Source of the DNA: Natronorubrum thiooxidans
GTDB taxonomy: Archaea > Halobacteriota > Halobacteria > Halobacteriales > Natrialbaceae
Length of the DNA: 64,000 bases
Assembly (NCBI RefSeq): GCF_900156475.1
Contig: NZ_FTNR01000011.1
Coordinates: 1 to 64,000 of the forward strand
Reading direction: 5' to 3'
Below the pieces are notes generated by a model. It was given only the letters and a program-made list of their open reading frames with translations. It had not been told where the DNA came from and made no database searches. The position numbers were made by a program, and so were the translations under genes. Shown here piece after piece: positions 2,692 to 12,366 of the stretch (position 1 is its first letter; each line of letters opens with the position of its first letter).

Positions 2692-3828
2692 TCACTCGAC
2701 CGGCTCGGCCTCGGGGAACTGGTAGCTCCCGTCGAGAATCTCCTCGCGCGGCTGGTAGAGCCGAACCGTGTAGGTCCATCCCTCTGGTGTATAGAGGAAG
2801 TTCGGCTGGTCGGGGTCACCACCGAAATGGATCGTGACACTGCCGTCGTCGGCTGGCTCTGCGGTCGCGTTACTCACAGTATAGGCATCGTACTCGTTCT
2901 CCTCGAAGTAGAAGTCGCTGTTGTAGACGCTGACCGACCAGAACCCGTCGACGGGGACGTCCTCGACGGTGAGTGTGTGTGGCGTCGTGCCGTCATTCTG
3001 GGCGGGAGTCCGTTGAAGAGCCAACGCTTCCGACGGCTCCGGAACACCGGTCCACCCTGCCGTACTGGCGATGAAATGCTTCACGGGGTCGACCTCATCG
3101 ACGTCGCCATACGCGCCCGAGTAGTCGTCAACTGTGAGTCCGACCGGTACGAGCGCGTCGTTGAGTTGTTCGTATGATTGCTGATCCCAGTTAGGGATCT
3201 CGAACGAGCCAGCCGACGATTGCTCCGCCTCGGTCTCGTCCTGGAGTTGCCGGACTTGGTCTAGATCGTCTGGATCGGTCGGGTCGACGAACGCGCGAAT
3301 CACGACGCCAGCATACCGGGTGCCGACGAGGTCCTGGGTTATCGTGTACTCGCCGGGGTCGGTGGCGAACATCTTCACGTATTGGTTCTCGTTCTGGACG
3401 TTCATCGACCGGTATCGGTCACCGCTGTCTGGGAGCGTGATGGTGACCGGCTCGGTTAGATCGAAGACCCCGAACGAGCCGAGCACGTCCCGGTCCTCCC
3501 CGACATAGACCTGATCCTCGATGGGGGAGACATCTCTGCGATGGTAGAATTGTCCGAACCCGCCCGCGTCGACGGTTGACTGGAACACGACATGACAGTT
3601 GGCGCGCGGGTAGTTCTCCCACGTCACTGGGACCGACTCGCCGTCTGCTGCCGTCTCGTTTTCAGCCCCCTGGGTGTTCGCCTCCGAGGCATGTTGGCCG
3701 GCAGTGGCGCTGCCACTGCCCAGTGCGAGCAGTCCGGCGAGGCCCGCCCCGCGAAGTGCATTTCGGCGCGTCGCCCACAGCAGTTCGGAACTGGAATCTG
3801 ACGTCGTGTGATCTGTTTCGTTGCTCAT
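2692..3828 (-). CDS. Tat-exported DUF1254/DUF1214 protein, copy 1
   Basis: A 378-residue protein. Residues 1-43 form a Tat signal: Arg21-Arg22 (RRNALRG), a short hydrophobic stretch, and a SATA signal-peptidase site. After an acidic linker, residues ~70-180 match DUF1254 (VFDLTEPVTITLPDSGDRYR). The C-terminal ~110 residues match DUF1214 (VPVDGFWSVSVYNSD, then HFGGDPDQPNFLYTPEGW). The molecular role of these extracytoplasmic domains is unknown. It is one of three paralogues here (also 4192-5322 and 11215-12366) sharing promoter, leader and body. GGAGAGGT lies about 7 bases before the ATG. Confidence 0.88.
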   Translation of the reverse strand: MSNETDHTTSDSSSELLWATRRNALRGAGLAGLLALGSGSATAGQHASEANTQGAENETAADGESVPVTWENYPRANCHVVFQSTVDAGGFGQFYHRRDVSPIEDQVYVGEDRDVLGSFGVFDLTEPVTITLPDSGDRYRSMNVQNENQYVKMFATDPGEYTITQDLVGTRYAGVVIRAFVDPTDPDDLDQVRQLQDETEAEQSSAGSFEIPNWDQQSYEQLNDALVPVGLTVDDYSGAYGDVDEVDPVKHFIASTAGWTGVPEPSEALALQRTPAQNDGTTPHTLTVEDVPVDGFWSVSVYNSDFYFEENEYDAYTVSNATAEPADDGSVTIHFGGDPDQPNFLYTPEGWTYTVRLYQPREEILDGSYQFPEAEPVE

Positions 3829-4038
3829 GACTCGTACCTCTCCGGGTGGCCCACAGCAGCGGTTGGGGCCGACTCAGACAATCGCACACCAGCATTTCAT
3901 ATAAAACATCGACGCCACTCGAGAATACGTCCATGTGATGACAATAGTGATACATGACTACTCATCTTTGAACTCTCGATCAACTATCTGGACGTGGGGT
4001 AATCGACCACAGACCTCAGTTCGTGTTGCACTCGCGAT
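3693..4038 (-). repeat. Promoter + 5'UTR + Tat-leader cassette, copy 1
   Basis: From the codons of the Tat leader back through the start codon to about 210 bases upstream, this sequence is alignable with 5187-5497, 7037-7376 and 12231-12574. Landmarks in the upstream part are a tatatgaaa-type TATA box (3896-3908), a conserved cccacagcagcggttg in the 5'UTR, a tgatgacaatagtgata block, and cagttcgtgttgcactcgcg at the far end. The TATA position implies a leader of about 45 bases carrying a Shine-Dalgarno sequence. Confidence 0.85.
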
Positions 4039-4191: not shown

Positions 4192-5322
4192 TCACTCGAT
4201 CGGCTCGGCCTCGGGGAACTGATAGCTCCCGTCGAGAATCTCCTCGCGGGGCCCGTAGAGCCGAACCAGGTAGAACCACTCCGCTGGGGTGTAGAGGAAG
4301 TTCGGTTGATCGGGGTCACCGCCGAAATGGATCGTGATAGTGCCGTCATCGGCTGACTCTGCAGTTACGTTGTTGAACGAGTACGCGTCGTACTCGTTCT
4401 CCTCGAGAAACCCGTCGCTGTTGTAGACGGTGACCGACCAGAATCCGTCGACGGGGACGTCCTGGACAGTGAACGTGTGTGGCGTGTTACCGTCGTTCTG
4501 TTCTGGGACTCGTTGCAGATAGATCGTTTCTGGCTCCGGAACGCCGCCCGGTGTCACAGTGGCAAGATAGTACTTGACGGGGTCGATCTCGTCGACGTCG
4601 CCATAAGCACCGCTGAAGTCGTCCATCGTTTTCATGACTGTGACGAGCGCGTCGAAGAGTTCTTGATGTGTCTGGCGGTCCCAATCGGGAATATCGAACG
4701 TACCGACCGAGTCTTGGCTCACTGCGAGTTCGTCCTGTAGTCCATAGACGGTCTCTACGTCGTCCGGATCGTTCGGGTCGACGAACGTGCGGACGATGAC
4801 CCACACGTACCGCGTCCCGACCCCGTCCCGGGTCAATGTGTACTCGCCGGGATCCTGATACGCCTCTTTCACGTACGCGTCCTCGTCCATGACGACCATC
4901 GACTGGTGGCGGTCACCGGCGTCCGGTTTGGTAATGGTGACCGGCTCGGACAGGTCGAAGACGCCGATCGAATAGATCGTGTCGCGATTGGGCAAGGCTG
5001 CGATCCGCACGTCAGGCCCGACTACCGTTCGGAAATGGTGGAATTCGCCGAACCCGCCTCGTTCGACGATGTTCTCCATCATTAGATGGATCTGTGACCG
5101 GGGAAAATTCTCCCAGGTCACTGGGACTGACTCGTCGGGCGCTGCCATCTCATTTTCAGTCCCCTGGGTGTTCCCTTCCGAAGAGTTTTGGCTGGCAGTG
5201 GCGCTGCCACCGCCCAGTGCGAGCAGTCCGGCGAGGCCCGCCCCGCGAAGTGCGGTTCGGCGCGTTGCCCGCAGGAGTTCGGAATTAGATTCTGGCGTCG
5301 TGTGATTTGTCTCGTTGCTCAT
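4192..5322 (-). CDS. Tat-exported DUF1254/DUF1214 protein, copy 2
   Basis: A 376-residue paralogue of the neighbour ending at 2692, same order: Tat signal (Arg21-Arg22, RRTALRG, ending SATA), acidic linker, DUF1254 (ALPNRDTIYSIGVFDLSEPV) and DUF1214 (VPVDGFWSVTVYNSDGFLEE). The NRDTIYS element is more canonical than in copy 1. The last ~50 residues are nearly the same as in the other copies, while the middle has diverged. That suggests duplication followed by drift, possibly with gene conversion at both ends. The product is predicted to fold in the cytoplasm and be exported by Tat. Function unknown. Confidence 0.88.
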   Translation of the reverse strand: MSNETNHTTPESNSELLRATRRTALRGAGLAGLLALGGGSATASQNSSEGNTQGTENEMAAPDESVPVTWENFPRSQIHLMMENIVERGGFGEFHHFRTVVGPDVRIAALPNRDTIYSIGVFDLSEPVTITKPDAGDRHQSMVVMDEDAYVKEAYQDPGEYTLTRDGVGTRYVWVIVRTFVDPNDPDDVETVYGLQDELAVSQDSVGTFDIPDWDRQTHQELFDALVTVMKTMDDFSGAYGDVDEIDPVKYYLATVTPGGVPEPETIYLQRVPEQNDGNTPHTFTVQDVPVDGFWSVTVYNSDGFLEENEYDAYSFNNVTAESADDGTITIHFGGDPDQPNFLYTPAEWFYLVRLYGPREEILDGSYQFPEAEPIE

Positions 5323-5497
5323 AGCTCATGTCGCTCCGAGTGGCCCACAGCAGCGGTTGGGACCAACTCACACGCTCGTACTCCAGCGTTCCACATAATT
5401 CGCCGACGACCCTCGAGAATAATTTCGCGACGCGATGATGGTGGCCGTTCGATGACTATCTCCGAGTTCCTGATCGACCATCTGTACCTGTTGTGTT
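5187..5497 (-). repeat. Promoter + 5'UTR + Tat-leader cassette, copy 2
   Basis: Same cassette as at 3693, 7037 and 12231. The TATA element reads ttatgtgg on the minus strand (5391-5400). Homology runs upstream through the ctgtacctg block, then stops near 5497, earlier than in the other copies; the gttcgtgttgcactcgcg end is missing here. Confidence 0.8.
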
Positions 5498-5597: not shown

Positions 5598-7175
5598 TCA
5601 GTCGTCGCCGCGCGCGGCTTCGAACGCCTCGATTGCGCGCTCGTGGTGTTCGCCGTAGTCGACGATGGGGGCGGGGTAATCGGGCGCGATGGCGGCTCGT
5701 TTCTCGTCGTCCAGCGTGGGCCACTCGTGGATGGCGTCGGTCGGCGCGTCCCGGAGTTCGGGGACGTGTTCCCTGACGTACTCGCCGTCCGGATCGTACT
5801 CCTCCGACTGGGTTACGGGGTCGAAGAAGCGGACGTACGGCTGGGCGTTCGCTCCCGTCGAGGCGGCCCACTGCCAGCCGCCGGCGGCGTGGGCGGTGTC
5901 GTGGTCCACGAGCTTTCGGCGGTACCAGTCGTACCCCTCGCGCCAGTCAATCAGCAGGTCCTTCGTGAGGAACGAGGCGGCCACCATCCGGACGCGGTTG
6001 TGAACCCACGCCTCGGCGCGCAACTGCCGCATCCCGGCGTCGACGAGCGGATAGCCCGTCTCGCCGTCCTTCCACGCCCGGAGACCCTCGGGATCGTCGC
6101 GCCACTGGATTTCGTTCGGGTACTCGCGGTAGTTCTCGGTAACGACGTCGGGACGCGCGTCCAGGACGTGCGCGTAGAACTCCCGCCAGGCGAGCCGTCG
6201 CCGGAACGCCTCGACCGACTCTCGGGCGTCTCCGTCGCTGGCGGCGGCCGCCGCGTCTTCAGTTGCTTTCCAGACCGTTCGGACGCCGACTGTCCCGAAC
6301 TTCAGGTGCGGCGAGAGGCGCGAGGTCGACTCTCGGGCGGGGTACTCGCGGTCGTCCCCGTAGCGGTAGATAGTGTCCTCGCGGAAGTCGGCGAGTAGGT
6401 CGTGGGCGGCGTCGGTGCCCGCTGGCTGCACGTCGGCTTCGGGATCGTCGAAGCCCAGCTCGGCGAGTGACGGTAGCGTGCCGGCGGTCTCGGAGGCCTC
6501 GCCGAGCCACTCCTCGTCGAGGCTGTCGCGTGGGTCGACGACGTCACCGCGAACCGGCGCGGCGACGGGGGCGGCCTTCTCCCGGTCGCGCCACTCCCGC
6601 CAGAAGTCCGAGAAGACAGAGTGGTGGCTCCCGTCGGCCGTCGTGATGGTCTCCGGTTTGTGGAGGAGGGTGCCGCCGAACCGCTCGACGTCGACGCTGA
6701 CGCCAGCGTCGGCGAGCGCCGCCGCGACCGCACGGTCGCGTTCGCCCGCCAGTCCGGAGTAGTCGCGGTTCCAGGTGACCGCATCGGCGTCGCAGGCCTC
6801 AGCGAGGTCGGGAAGTACCGTCCTCGGGTCGCCGCGGGCGAGGAGCAGTTCGCCGCCGCGCTCGCGGTACTGCTCGCGCAACGAGTCCAGCGCACCGAGC
6901 AGGAACGATACCACGGGCGGCGCGCCGTAGGCGAGTATCGCGGGATCGTGGACGAACACTGGGAGGAGGCGGTCGTCGCCCGCCAGCGCCGGGTTGTCGG
7001 TCACACGAAGATCACGGCGGTGCCAGTGAAGTCGCACACCGGAGTCTTGGCGGGCACTGGCGCCGCCCATCGCGAGCATTCCGGCGAGGCCCGCCCCACG
7101 AAGTGCGTTTCGGCGTGTCGCCCGCAGCGGTTCAAAGTCCGATTCTGACGTCGCGTGGTATGGCTCTTCGCTCAT
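5598..7175 (-). CDS. phr: Photolyase/cryptochrome-family protein fused to a Tat signal
   Basis: A 525-residue reading frame. Residues 1-46 are a Tat leader of the same family as the DUF1254 paralogues (RRNALRGAGLAGMLAMGG at 21-38, then AxA at 39-41). From Val47 (RLHWHRRDLRVTDN) it is a full class I photolyase: antenna domain, then the FAD domain. The tryptophan chain is intact (Trp358, Trp411, Trp434, matching E. coli 306, 359, 382). The Asn378 position next to flavin N5 is Ala430 (AHAAGGWQW). Class I photolyases repair cyclobutane dimers with blue light in the cytoplasm; export would be unprecedented. GTG at 7037 could start an unfused protein, but no ribosome-binding site precedes it, whereas 7175 has the cassette promoter and gagagg. 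Confidence 0.9.
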   Translation of the reverse strand: MSEEPYHATSESDFEPLRATRRNALRGAGLAGMLAMGGASARQDSGVRLHWHRRDLRVTDNPALAGDDRLLPVFVHDPAILAYGAPPVVSFLLGALDSLREQYRERGGELLLARGDPRTVLPDLAEACDADAVTWNRDYSGLAGERDRAVAAALADAGVSVDVERFGGTLLHKPETITTADGSHHSVFSDFWREWRDREKAAPVAAPVRGDVVDPRDSLDEEWLGEASETAGTLPSLAELGFDDPEADVQPAGTDAAHDLLADFREDTIYRYGDDREYPARESTSRLSPHLKFGTVGVRTVWKATEDAAAAASDGDARESVEAFRRRLAWREFYAHVLDARPDVVTENYREYPNEIQWRDDPEGLRAWKDGETGYPLVDAGMRQLRAEAWVHNRVRMVAASFLTKDLLIDWREGYDWYRRKLVDHDTAHAAGGWQWAASTGANAQPYVRFFDPVTQSEEYDPDGEYVREHVPELRDAPTDAIHEWPTLDDEKRAAIAPDYPAPIVDYGEHHERAIEAFEAARGDD

Positions 7176-7376
7176 GACTCATGCCTCTCTGAGTGGTCCA
7201 CAGCAGCAGTTGCGACCGACTCACACACTCGCACTTCAGGATTCCATATAATACAGTGACGATACTCGAGAAGAAACTCGTGACATGATGATAGTGATAG
7301 ACGGCACTAAATTCTTGATCGGCTATCTGTACGTGTAGCGAGCGATGACGGACTTCAGTTCGTGTTGTACTCGCGC
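7037..7376 (-). repeat. Promoter + 5'UTR + Tat-leader cassette, copy 3 (drives phr)
   Basis: The cassette found before the three DUF1254 genes here precedes the photolyase body. The TATA element is attatatgg (7244-7252, minus strand), about 70 bases before the ATG at 7175. The cccacagcag block is changed by one base (tccacagcag). The upstream end cagttcgtgttgtactcgcg is at about 7357-7376. Homology to the DUF1254 genes ends within the leader, a few codons before Val47 of the photolyase. Confidence 0.88.
7244..7252 (-). promoter_or_regulatory. TATA box in the photolyase cassette
   Basis: attatatgg on the minus strand; predicts transcription from about 7221, giving a ~46-base 5'UTR before ATG 7175. 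Identical in place to the DUF1254 promoters. Confidence 0.55.
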
Positions 7377-11214: not shown

Positions 11215-12366
11215 TCACTCGAGCGGCTCGGCTTCGGGGAACTGATAGCTCCCGTCGAGAACCTCCTCACGTGGTCGGTAGAGCCGAACGATATAGCGCC
11301 AGCCCTCCGGGGTGTAGAGGAAGTTCGGTTGATCGGGGTCACCGCCGAGGTGCACCGTGACACTCCCGTCGTCGGCCCTCTCTGCGGTCACGTCGTTGAT
11401 CGAGTACGCATCGTACTCGTTCTCCTCGAGCAACCAGTCGCTGTTGTAGACGGTGACCGACCAGAATGCGTCGACGGGGACGGTGTCCGGCTCCTCGACG
11501 GTGAGTGTGTATGGTGTTTCGCCGTCGTTTTGTTCGGGGTACCGCATTACAAGTAACGACTCTGATTCAGGAAGTCCACCCGGGCCGAACGCTGCAGTAC
11601 CGAGGTAAAACTTGACGGGGTCGACCTCGTCGACGTCGCCATAGACGCCTCCTAAGTCGTCCATCGTCTCTCCGACCGTGATGAGCGCCTCCTGAATTTC
11701 TTCCAACGATTCTCGATCCCAGTTGGGAATCTCGAACGTTCCAGACGATTGTTGACGTATCGTCGTTTCATCCTGTAGTCTATGAGCTTCGTTCACATCG
11801 GCCGGATCGTTCAGGTCGACAAACGTGCGCATGAGGGCGCTGACGTACTGCGTTCCGATCTCATCCTGTGTCAACGTGTACTCGCCGGGATCGGAGAGAA
11901 CCCCTTTCACGTATTGGTCTTGGTTGGTAAGAACTATCGACTGGTACCGGTCACCGGTGTCCGGTTTCGTGATGGTCACCGGCTCGGCCAGGTCGAATAT
12001 TCCCCACGAGTAAAGCACCTCGTGATTCGGTGCCTTGGGTTGGTTGACCTGCTCCTCGATGGGAGGGATATCTCGGTAGTGCTTGAACTCGCCGAACCCA
12101 CCGATTTCGACATGTGATTCGAAGTAGTCATCCGCCTGGGCGCGGAGGAAGTTCTCCCACGTCACTGGGAGTGGCTCGTCATCCGCTGACGTCTCGGTTT
12201 CAGCCCCCTGGGTGTCCGTCTCCGAGGGGTTTTGGCTGGCAGTGGCACTGCCACCACCCAGCGCGAGCAGTCCGGCGAGGCCCGCCCCGCGAAGTGCATT
12301 TCGGCGCGTTGCCCGCAGCGGTCTGAAGTTCGATTTTGCCGTCTTGTGGTGTGGTTCGTTGCTCAT
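11215..12366 (-). CDS. Tat-exported DUF1254/DUF1214 protein, copy 3
   Basis: A 383-residue paralogue of the genes at 2692 and 4192, with the same plan: Tat signal with Arg21-Arg22 (RRNALRG), SATA cleavage site, DUF1254 (SWGIFDLAEPVTITKPDTGD) and DUF1214 (VPVDAFWSVTVYNSDWLLEE). It is about 3 kb from the other copies, with phr, an MFS gene and a SulP gene between, so the array was probably broken up. Promoter and leader belong to the shared cassette. It is directly upstream of the SulP gene. Function unknown. Confidence 0.88.
   Translation of the reverse strand: MSNEPHHKTAKSNFRPLRATRRNALRGAGLAGLLALGGGSATASQNPSETDTQGAETETSADDEPLPVTWENFLRAQADDYFESHVEIGGFGEFKHYRDIPPIEEQVNQPKAPNHEVLYSWGIFDLAEPVTITKPDTGDRYQSIVLTNQDQYVKGVLSDPGEYTLTQDEIGTQYVSALMRTFVDLNDPADVNEAHRLQDETTIRQQSSGTFEIPNWDRESLEEIQEALITVGETMDDLGGVYGDVDEVDPVKFYLGTAAFGPGGLPESESLLVMRYPEQNDGETPYTLTVEEPDTVPVDAFWSVTVYNSDWLLEENEYDAYSINDVTAERADDGSVTVHLGGDPDQPNFLYTPEGWRYIVRLYRPREEVLDGSYQFPEAEPLE

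Follow-up and report, generated by a model that had tools for sequence, protein, structure and literature searches.

A photolyase paralogue of Natrialbaceae with a conserved Tat-type leader and alanine at the flavin-N5 position, suggestive of a role other than repair of the cell's own DNA

The locus: a class-I photolyase homologue with an N-terminal leader

The window analyzed here, a stretch of 64,000 nucleotides from Natronorubrum thiooxidans (contig NZ_FTNR01000011.1), contains on the minus strand (on which all features of this gene are read) an ORF at 5598..7175 that encodes a 525-aa protein consisting of a 46-residue leader followed by a complete class-I photolyase. The Pfam domains DNA_photolyase and FAD_binding_7 are detected with 131.5 and 256.4 bits, respectively, and the latter runs to residue 519 of 525, leaving no C-terminal extension of the cryptochrome type. 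In the predicted model of the protein (pLDDT 81, pTM 0.82, 23 rows), residues 1-44 are disordered and the first strand starts at residue 47; the model matches the photolyase of Anacystis nidulans (1owl) with a Z score of 46.7 and an rmsd of 1.8 over 465 residues at 38% identity, and Foldseek gave a concordant result. The score for the NCBIfam profile TIGR03556 (photolyase_8HDF), 421.5 bits, is below the curated cut-off of 884.6. The Trp triad typical of class-I CPD photolyases, Trp358 (6102..6104), Trp411 (5943..5945) and Trp434 (5874..5876), is intact in the translation, as the original prediction had it, and is invariant across the clade described below.

The same strand of the window encodes three DUF1254/DUF1214 proteins identified by ORF, Pfam, neighborhood and leader comparison, two of which (4192..5322 and 11215..12366) have the same leader as the photolyase and one of which (2692..3828) has a related leader. 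A 247-nt repeat that spans promoter and leader is present in a reference copy on the DUF1254 gene at 2692-3828 (3706..3952), a second copy on the gene at 4192-5322 (5200..5446) and a third copy on the photolyase gene (7053..7299), which is 78% identical to the reference copy.

Alanine in an aspartate background at the flavin-N5 position

The motif TAHAAGGWQW (residues 427-436) occupies 5868..5897; it had been recognized correctly and placed 2-4 nt off, at 5864-5895. Within it, Ala430 (codon GCC, 5886..5888), four residues ahead of W434 (W-4), aligns without gaps with N386 of A. nidulans and is at the flavin-N5 position, as claimed. The assumption that Asn was the residue lost did not survive the comparison with relatives. 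The W-4 residue is Asp in all 28 canonical haloarchaeal sequences extracted and in all 12 canonical copies from the genomes that carry the gene under study; six genes are common to the two sets, which gives 34 distinct canonical sequences, 34 with Asp and none with Ala. A predominance of Ala among haloarchaeal photolyases of this subfamily, which the original prediction had named (with full repair activity) as fatal to its reading, is thus not observed; an Asn-to-Ala event is ruled out, and the change is from Asp to Ala. The tally leaves aside three paralogues (L003, L058 and L059), all with Asn at W-4; two of these (L003 and L058, 44-45% identity) represent a second photolyase paralogue that retains this Asn, and bacterial class-I relatives mostly have Asn as well. 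The Asp of the canonical haloarchaeal enzymes (L002, L015-L036, L051-L055) is the residue found in plant cryptochromes. An Asp at this position in Halobacterium NRC-1 and others, and an Asn in Halorubrum BOL3-1, are given in PMC10052015. Conservation of Asn is described in PMC10551024 as exclusive to CPD and 6-4 photolyases; the haloarchaeal Asp enzymes are an exception to that claim.

Distribution, monophyly and spread of the Ala-bearing genes

The exact motif AHAAGGWQW is present in 14 of the 125 genomes of the family, from 7 of 29 genera, and a reversed control pattern has no match in the same 125 genomes. An order-wide search for Ala in the looser context AxGGWQWxA gave only 8 genomes out of 392, each with a member of the same clade. 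These counts argue against a chance occurrence of the motif, and the possibility that Ala is widespread in haloarchaeal photolyases is ruled out. A protein search of the 392 genomes yielded a photolyase match in 344; among the matches listed, only the 8 members align from residue 1 at 88% identity or higher, the next best being at 67%. A fifteenth member is encoded on a plasmid of Natribaculum longum, and Ala is present in 15 of 15 members.

In the phylogenetic tree, the clade is monophyletic (100/100) and nested among haloarchaeal photolyases, and its sister is a leaderless gene that bears Asp. Of the bacterial relatives and the second paralogue (L003 and L058), no more than 30 rows were added to this tree; branches in that part are long, and the midpoint root serves for drawing only. 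Two members (G395 and G401), read from a start nine codons (27 nt) further upstream, were trimmed for the comparisons of leader, constraint, identity and tree. The tree rules out an origin by duplication of the canonical copy of the same genome, and the association of leader and Ala within the clade counts as a single origin.

Over 66 genome pairs, the mean identity of the clade bodies is 0.900 compared to 0.740 for the canonical copies, with the former higher in 65 of the 66 pairs and no correlation between the two (r -0.07). The excess of body identity combined with this lack of correlation points to recent horizontal spread, which appears to be the simplest reading of the sequence data; stronger constraint on the clade gene might possibly have raised the body identity as well. 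A separate canonical class-I copy is kept in 12 of the 14 genomes, and in the other two (G203 and G371) the leader-bearing gene is the sole class-I photolyase. A PF04244 gene is present in one of the 14 genomes and absent from G203 and G371; since these two have neither, the leader-bearing gene could still serve repair there. In one genome (G402), the leader-bearing gene shares a region of about 24 kb (contig C6, 98687-122167) with two further photolyase-family genes, one a distant PF03441 member and the other a PF04244 member.

A conserved Tat-type leader

The odd location signal mentioned in the original prediction is real and is, in our judgment, the larger finding. The leader (codons 1-46, 7038..7175) is conserved in all 15 members, each with RATRRxALRG, then a stretch of low charge and xSA. 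Tat substrates carry a twin-arginine motif and an uncharged h-region near the N-terminus. Here, the twin arginines R21-R22 of TRRxALRG (7110..7115) are invariant in 14/14 members, with only synonymous codon variation, and the uncharged run is 15 residues long in 12 members and 11 in the other two, G203 and G371, where an Arg lies within the h-region. A predicted signal peptidase I-like cleavage site, A39-S40-A41 (7053..7061), follows, with A39 found in 13 and S40 and A41 in all 14 members. In a single member (L074 of G329), an R42C substitution turns the sequence behind the h-region into ASAC, whose Cys might resemble that of a lipobox. A TATA-like box (TTATATGG, 7244..7251, minus strand) is located 76 nt before the ATG and at about -75 to -78 in all 14 members.

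Codons 18-41 of the leader show a dN/dS of 0.17, compared to 0.50 for the first 17 codons and 0.25 for the body (91 pairs), and across codons 18-35 third positions are variable in 12 of 18 cases against 7 of 36 for first and second positions combined (Fisher p 0.001). Judged by these substitution patterns, the leader is translated and constrained, and it has both elements of a Tat substrate.

These data bear on a reading that we consider unlikely, namely that the protein is a cytosolic photolyase with an incidental leader, translated from codon 36 or 47, with the upstream sequence a relic of promoter capture and CPD repair perhaps weakened. The RefSeq annotation of Natribaculum luteum (WP_246976662; L114:6139-7578) does start at codon 47, a CTG in this gene, and so removes the leader; codon 36 is ATG in 14/14 members; most of the substrate contacts are kept; and in two genomes this gene is the sole class-I photolyase. 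However, only 8 of the 14 members have ATG or GTG at codon 47, the remaining 6 having neither, and codons 18-35 evolve as constrained coding sequence. An internal start at codon 36 is possible, judging from the conserved ATG, but would leave the constraint upstream of it without explanation. Nor can the similarity of the leaders be put down to recent conversion: photolyase leaders are more similar to one another (0.904) than to those carried by other genes of the respective genome (0.782).

Origin of the leader

A promoter-plus-Tat-leader cassette is common to the DUF1254/DUF1214 family, and its copies surround the photolyase gene in several genomes; within the stretches covered, 15 further ORFs were found to have related leaders. 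The GC3 of the leader is 0.67 compared to 0.84 for the body, and among 6057 equally long windows of the body only 17 have a GC3 that low, as a fusion would predict. Gene conversion of the leader from its neighbors is not supported, given the same likeness values, and the data fit a single event of leader capture at the root of the clade. In two longer DUF1254 proteins (L077:7254-8939 and L081:10797-12476), a truncated leader copy precedes what appears to be a second twin-arginine motif, their own, and in G203 an unrelated ORF of 108 aa (L062:1501-1827) carries the leader. As for the function of these partners, the literature search returned no paper on DUF1254/DUF1214, and the PDB matches are to uncharacterised entries only.

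Linked substitutions and the capacity for repair

Sites were taken as clade-defining when fixed in at least 13 of 14 members and different in at least 90% of the canonical sequences. Nine sites qualify, including Ala430, the adjacent His429 (5889..5891; Asn in 27/28 canonical sequences), Arg327 (6195..6197; A. nidulans E283, a CPD contact; Gln in 28/28) and Val88 (6912..6914; A. nidulans R51, an 8-HDF contact; Arg in 28/28), all assigned by alignment. The CPD-contact position, Glu or Gln elsewhere, is Arg in 13 of the 15 members including the protein under study, and Gln is retained in the other two, G399 and N. longum. The basal placement of G399 within the clade implies that the Gln-to-Arg change probably came after the Ala change and the gain of the leader. 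The antenna Arg is replaced by Val in 14/14 members. Of the A. nidulans residues that we take to be substrate contacts, W286, N349 and W392 are kept in 14/14 members, and R232 and M353 in 13/14. Given the changes at the N5, CPD-contact and antenna positions, efficient CPD repair by the clade protein appears doubtful.

PMC10052015, which also assigns the antenna (8-HDF) role to the R51 position, reports little or no photoreactivation, a strain phenotype, for Haloterrigena salifodinae BOL5-1. Its Phr variant has 50V, 282R, 384H, 385A and 398N in the numbering of that paper in common with the clade (position 460, beyond the aligned A. nidulans fragment, is left out of this comparison). Because of these five shared substitutions, the BOL5-1 Phr is almost certainly a clade member. 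The substitutions are already in print for BOL5-1; the leader and the clade are not.

The changes are read there as a loss of function in strains from dark habitats, and a decaying photolyase can be considered for the clade as a whole. The hydrogen bonds described as lost at the N5, antenna and CPD-contact positions and the poor photoreactivation of BOL5-1 (both from PMC10052015) are as decay would have them. Nevertheless, these substitutions have become fixed in 15 members whose reading frames are intact, the body evolves at a dN/dS of 0.25, and the source is brine for N. luteum, saline soil for N. longum and marine sediment for N. gelatinilyticum. We regard decay as the least probable of the readings discussed here.

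Flavin chemistry and the question of a light sensor

The side chain of Ala can neither form a hydrogen bond nor donate a proton, from which altered flavin radical chemistry in the clade would follow and which, in view of the residues found, we consider likely. The corresponding Asn378 of Escherichia coli is reportedly crucial for both the neutral radical and repair. In cryptochromes, the N5 residue is described as governing protonation of the flavin radical and is Asp in plants and Cys in insects (PMC8653763, PMC7910608). Altered photochemistry, the first half of the functional proposal in the original prediction, is therefore likely to stand, with Ala in 15/15 members accompanied by His429 and Arg327 (the latter in 13/15) in the same pocket and by Val88 at the antenna site. 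The second half, a shift toward light sensing, found no direct support.

Specifically, a cytosolic or membrane-tethered, cryptochrome-like blue-light sensor, anchored by its uncleaved leader, would agree with the altered N5 residue, the retained Trp triad and the separate repair copy in 12 of the 14 genomes. Against this stand the lack of a C-terminal extension, the conserved A-S-A resembling a cleavage site and the neighborhood surveyed, in which no output partner was recognized. We deem such a sensor improbable, on a par with decay or barely above it.

A model for the origin and function of the clade

Based on these observations, we propose the following scenario. A haloarchaeal class-I photolyase gene would have acquired the promoter and Tat signal of a neighboring DUF1254-type gene by recombination with its 5' end. 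The precursor would fold and bind FAD in the cytosol, to be transported by the Tat translocase, and cleavage after Ala-Ser-Ala would yield a mature protein whose N-terminus coincides with the start of strand 1 in the photolyase domain. This lineage would also have exchanged the N5 Asp for Ala, the antenna Arg for Val and, later, the CPD-contact Gln for Arg. By analogy with the known N5 residues, Ala would stabilize the neutral flavin radical less and impair CPD photorepair, and the product would be a flavoprotein, exported or at the cell surface, whose blue-light redox chemistry is altered, rather than the working DNA photolyase of the cell. The sequence changes, their single origin, the conservation and constraint of the leader and the fold retained in the predicted model are what the analysis documents; export, cleavage, flavin state, loss of repair and any new function are inferences. 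Taken as a whole, leader capture, Tat export, altered flavin chemistry and a function apart from DNA repair make up the explanation that we favor, by a modest degree. The gain of an export signal together with the loss of a flavin-tuning residue suggests a role other than repair of the cell's own DNA; the gene is best read as a photolyase paralogue that has spread horizontally, is targeted to the Tat pathway and has altered flavin chemistry, and it probably serves mainly for something other than CPD repair. G203 and G371 are the genomes where it could double as a repair enzyme. More tentatively, and on balance doubtfully, these proteins might constitute a Tat-exported N5-alanine family retuned for extracellular blue-light flavin chemistry and spread in Natrialbaceae, partly on plasmids.

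Tat export would suit a prefolded flavoprotein. Against export, an extracellular photolyase has no obvious substrate, and there is no partner gene that indicates a use; surface light sensing and light-driven redox are guesses at an extracellular role. Among the matches listed in our search of open-licence papers, none was relevant to export, secretion or Tat dependence of a photolyase or cryptochrome. An exported member of this family would, if real, be surprising, since photolyases act on the cell's own DNA. The clade further offers a natural test of the N5 residue, which is mostly Asn in bacteria, Asp in the haloarchaeal repair enzymes and Ala here, with a close Asp-bearing sister gene available for comparison, and it warns that leaders can be hidden by genome annotation.

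Comparison with known systems

Plant and insect cryptochromes, like the clade, depart from Asn at the N5 position (Asp and Cys, respectively; PMC8653763 and PMC7910608). The identity to the cryptochrome 1u3c is about 30%, and the protein described here differs in having Ala at N5 and no C-terminal extension. The closest solved structure is the A. nidulans photolyase (1owl/1qnf) which, unlike the clade, has Asn at N5, Glu at the CPD contact, the antenna Arg and no leader. The Phr2-type enzyme of Halobacterium NRC-1 has the same fold, FAD-domain residues and Trp triad, and the clade nests inside the haloarchaeal sequences; compared to this type, it has Ala for Asp at N5, His for the adjacent Asn, Val for the antenna Arg, Arg for the CPD-contact Gln in most members, and the N-terminal Tat-type leader. 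The BOL5-1 Phr is treated in PMC10052015 as the phr2 of that strain, with its changes read as damage in a subsurface strain, and the words 'signal' and 'secret' are absent from the text; for this published variant, the present analysis offers an alternative reading.
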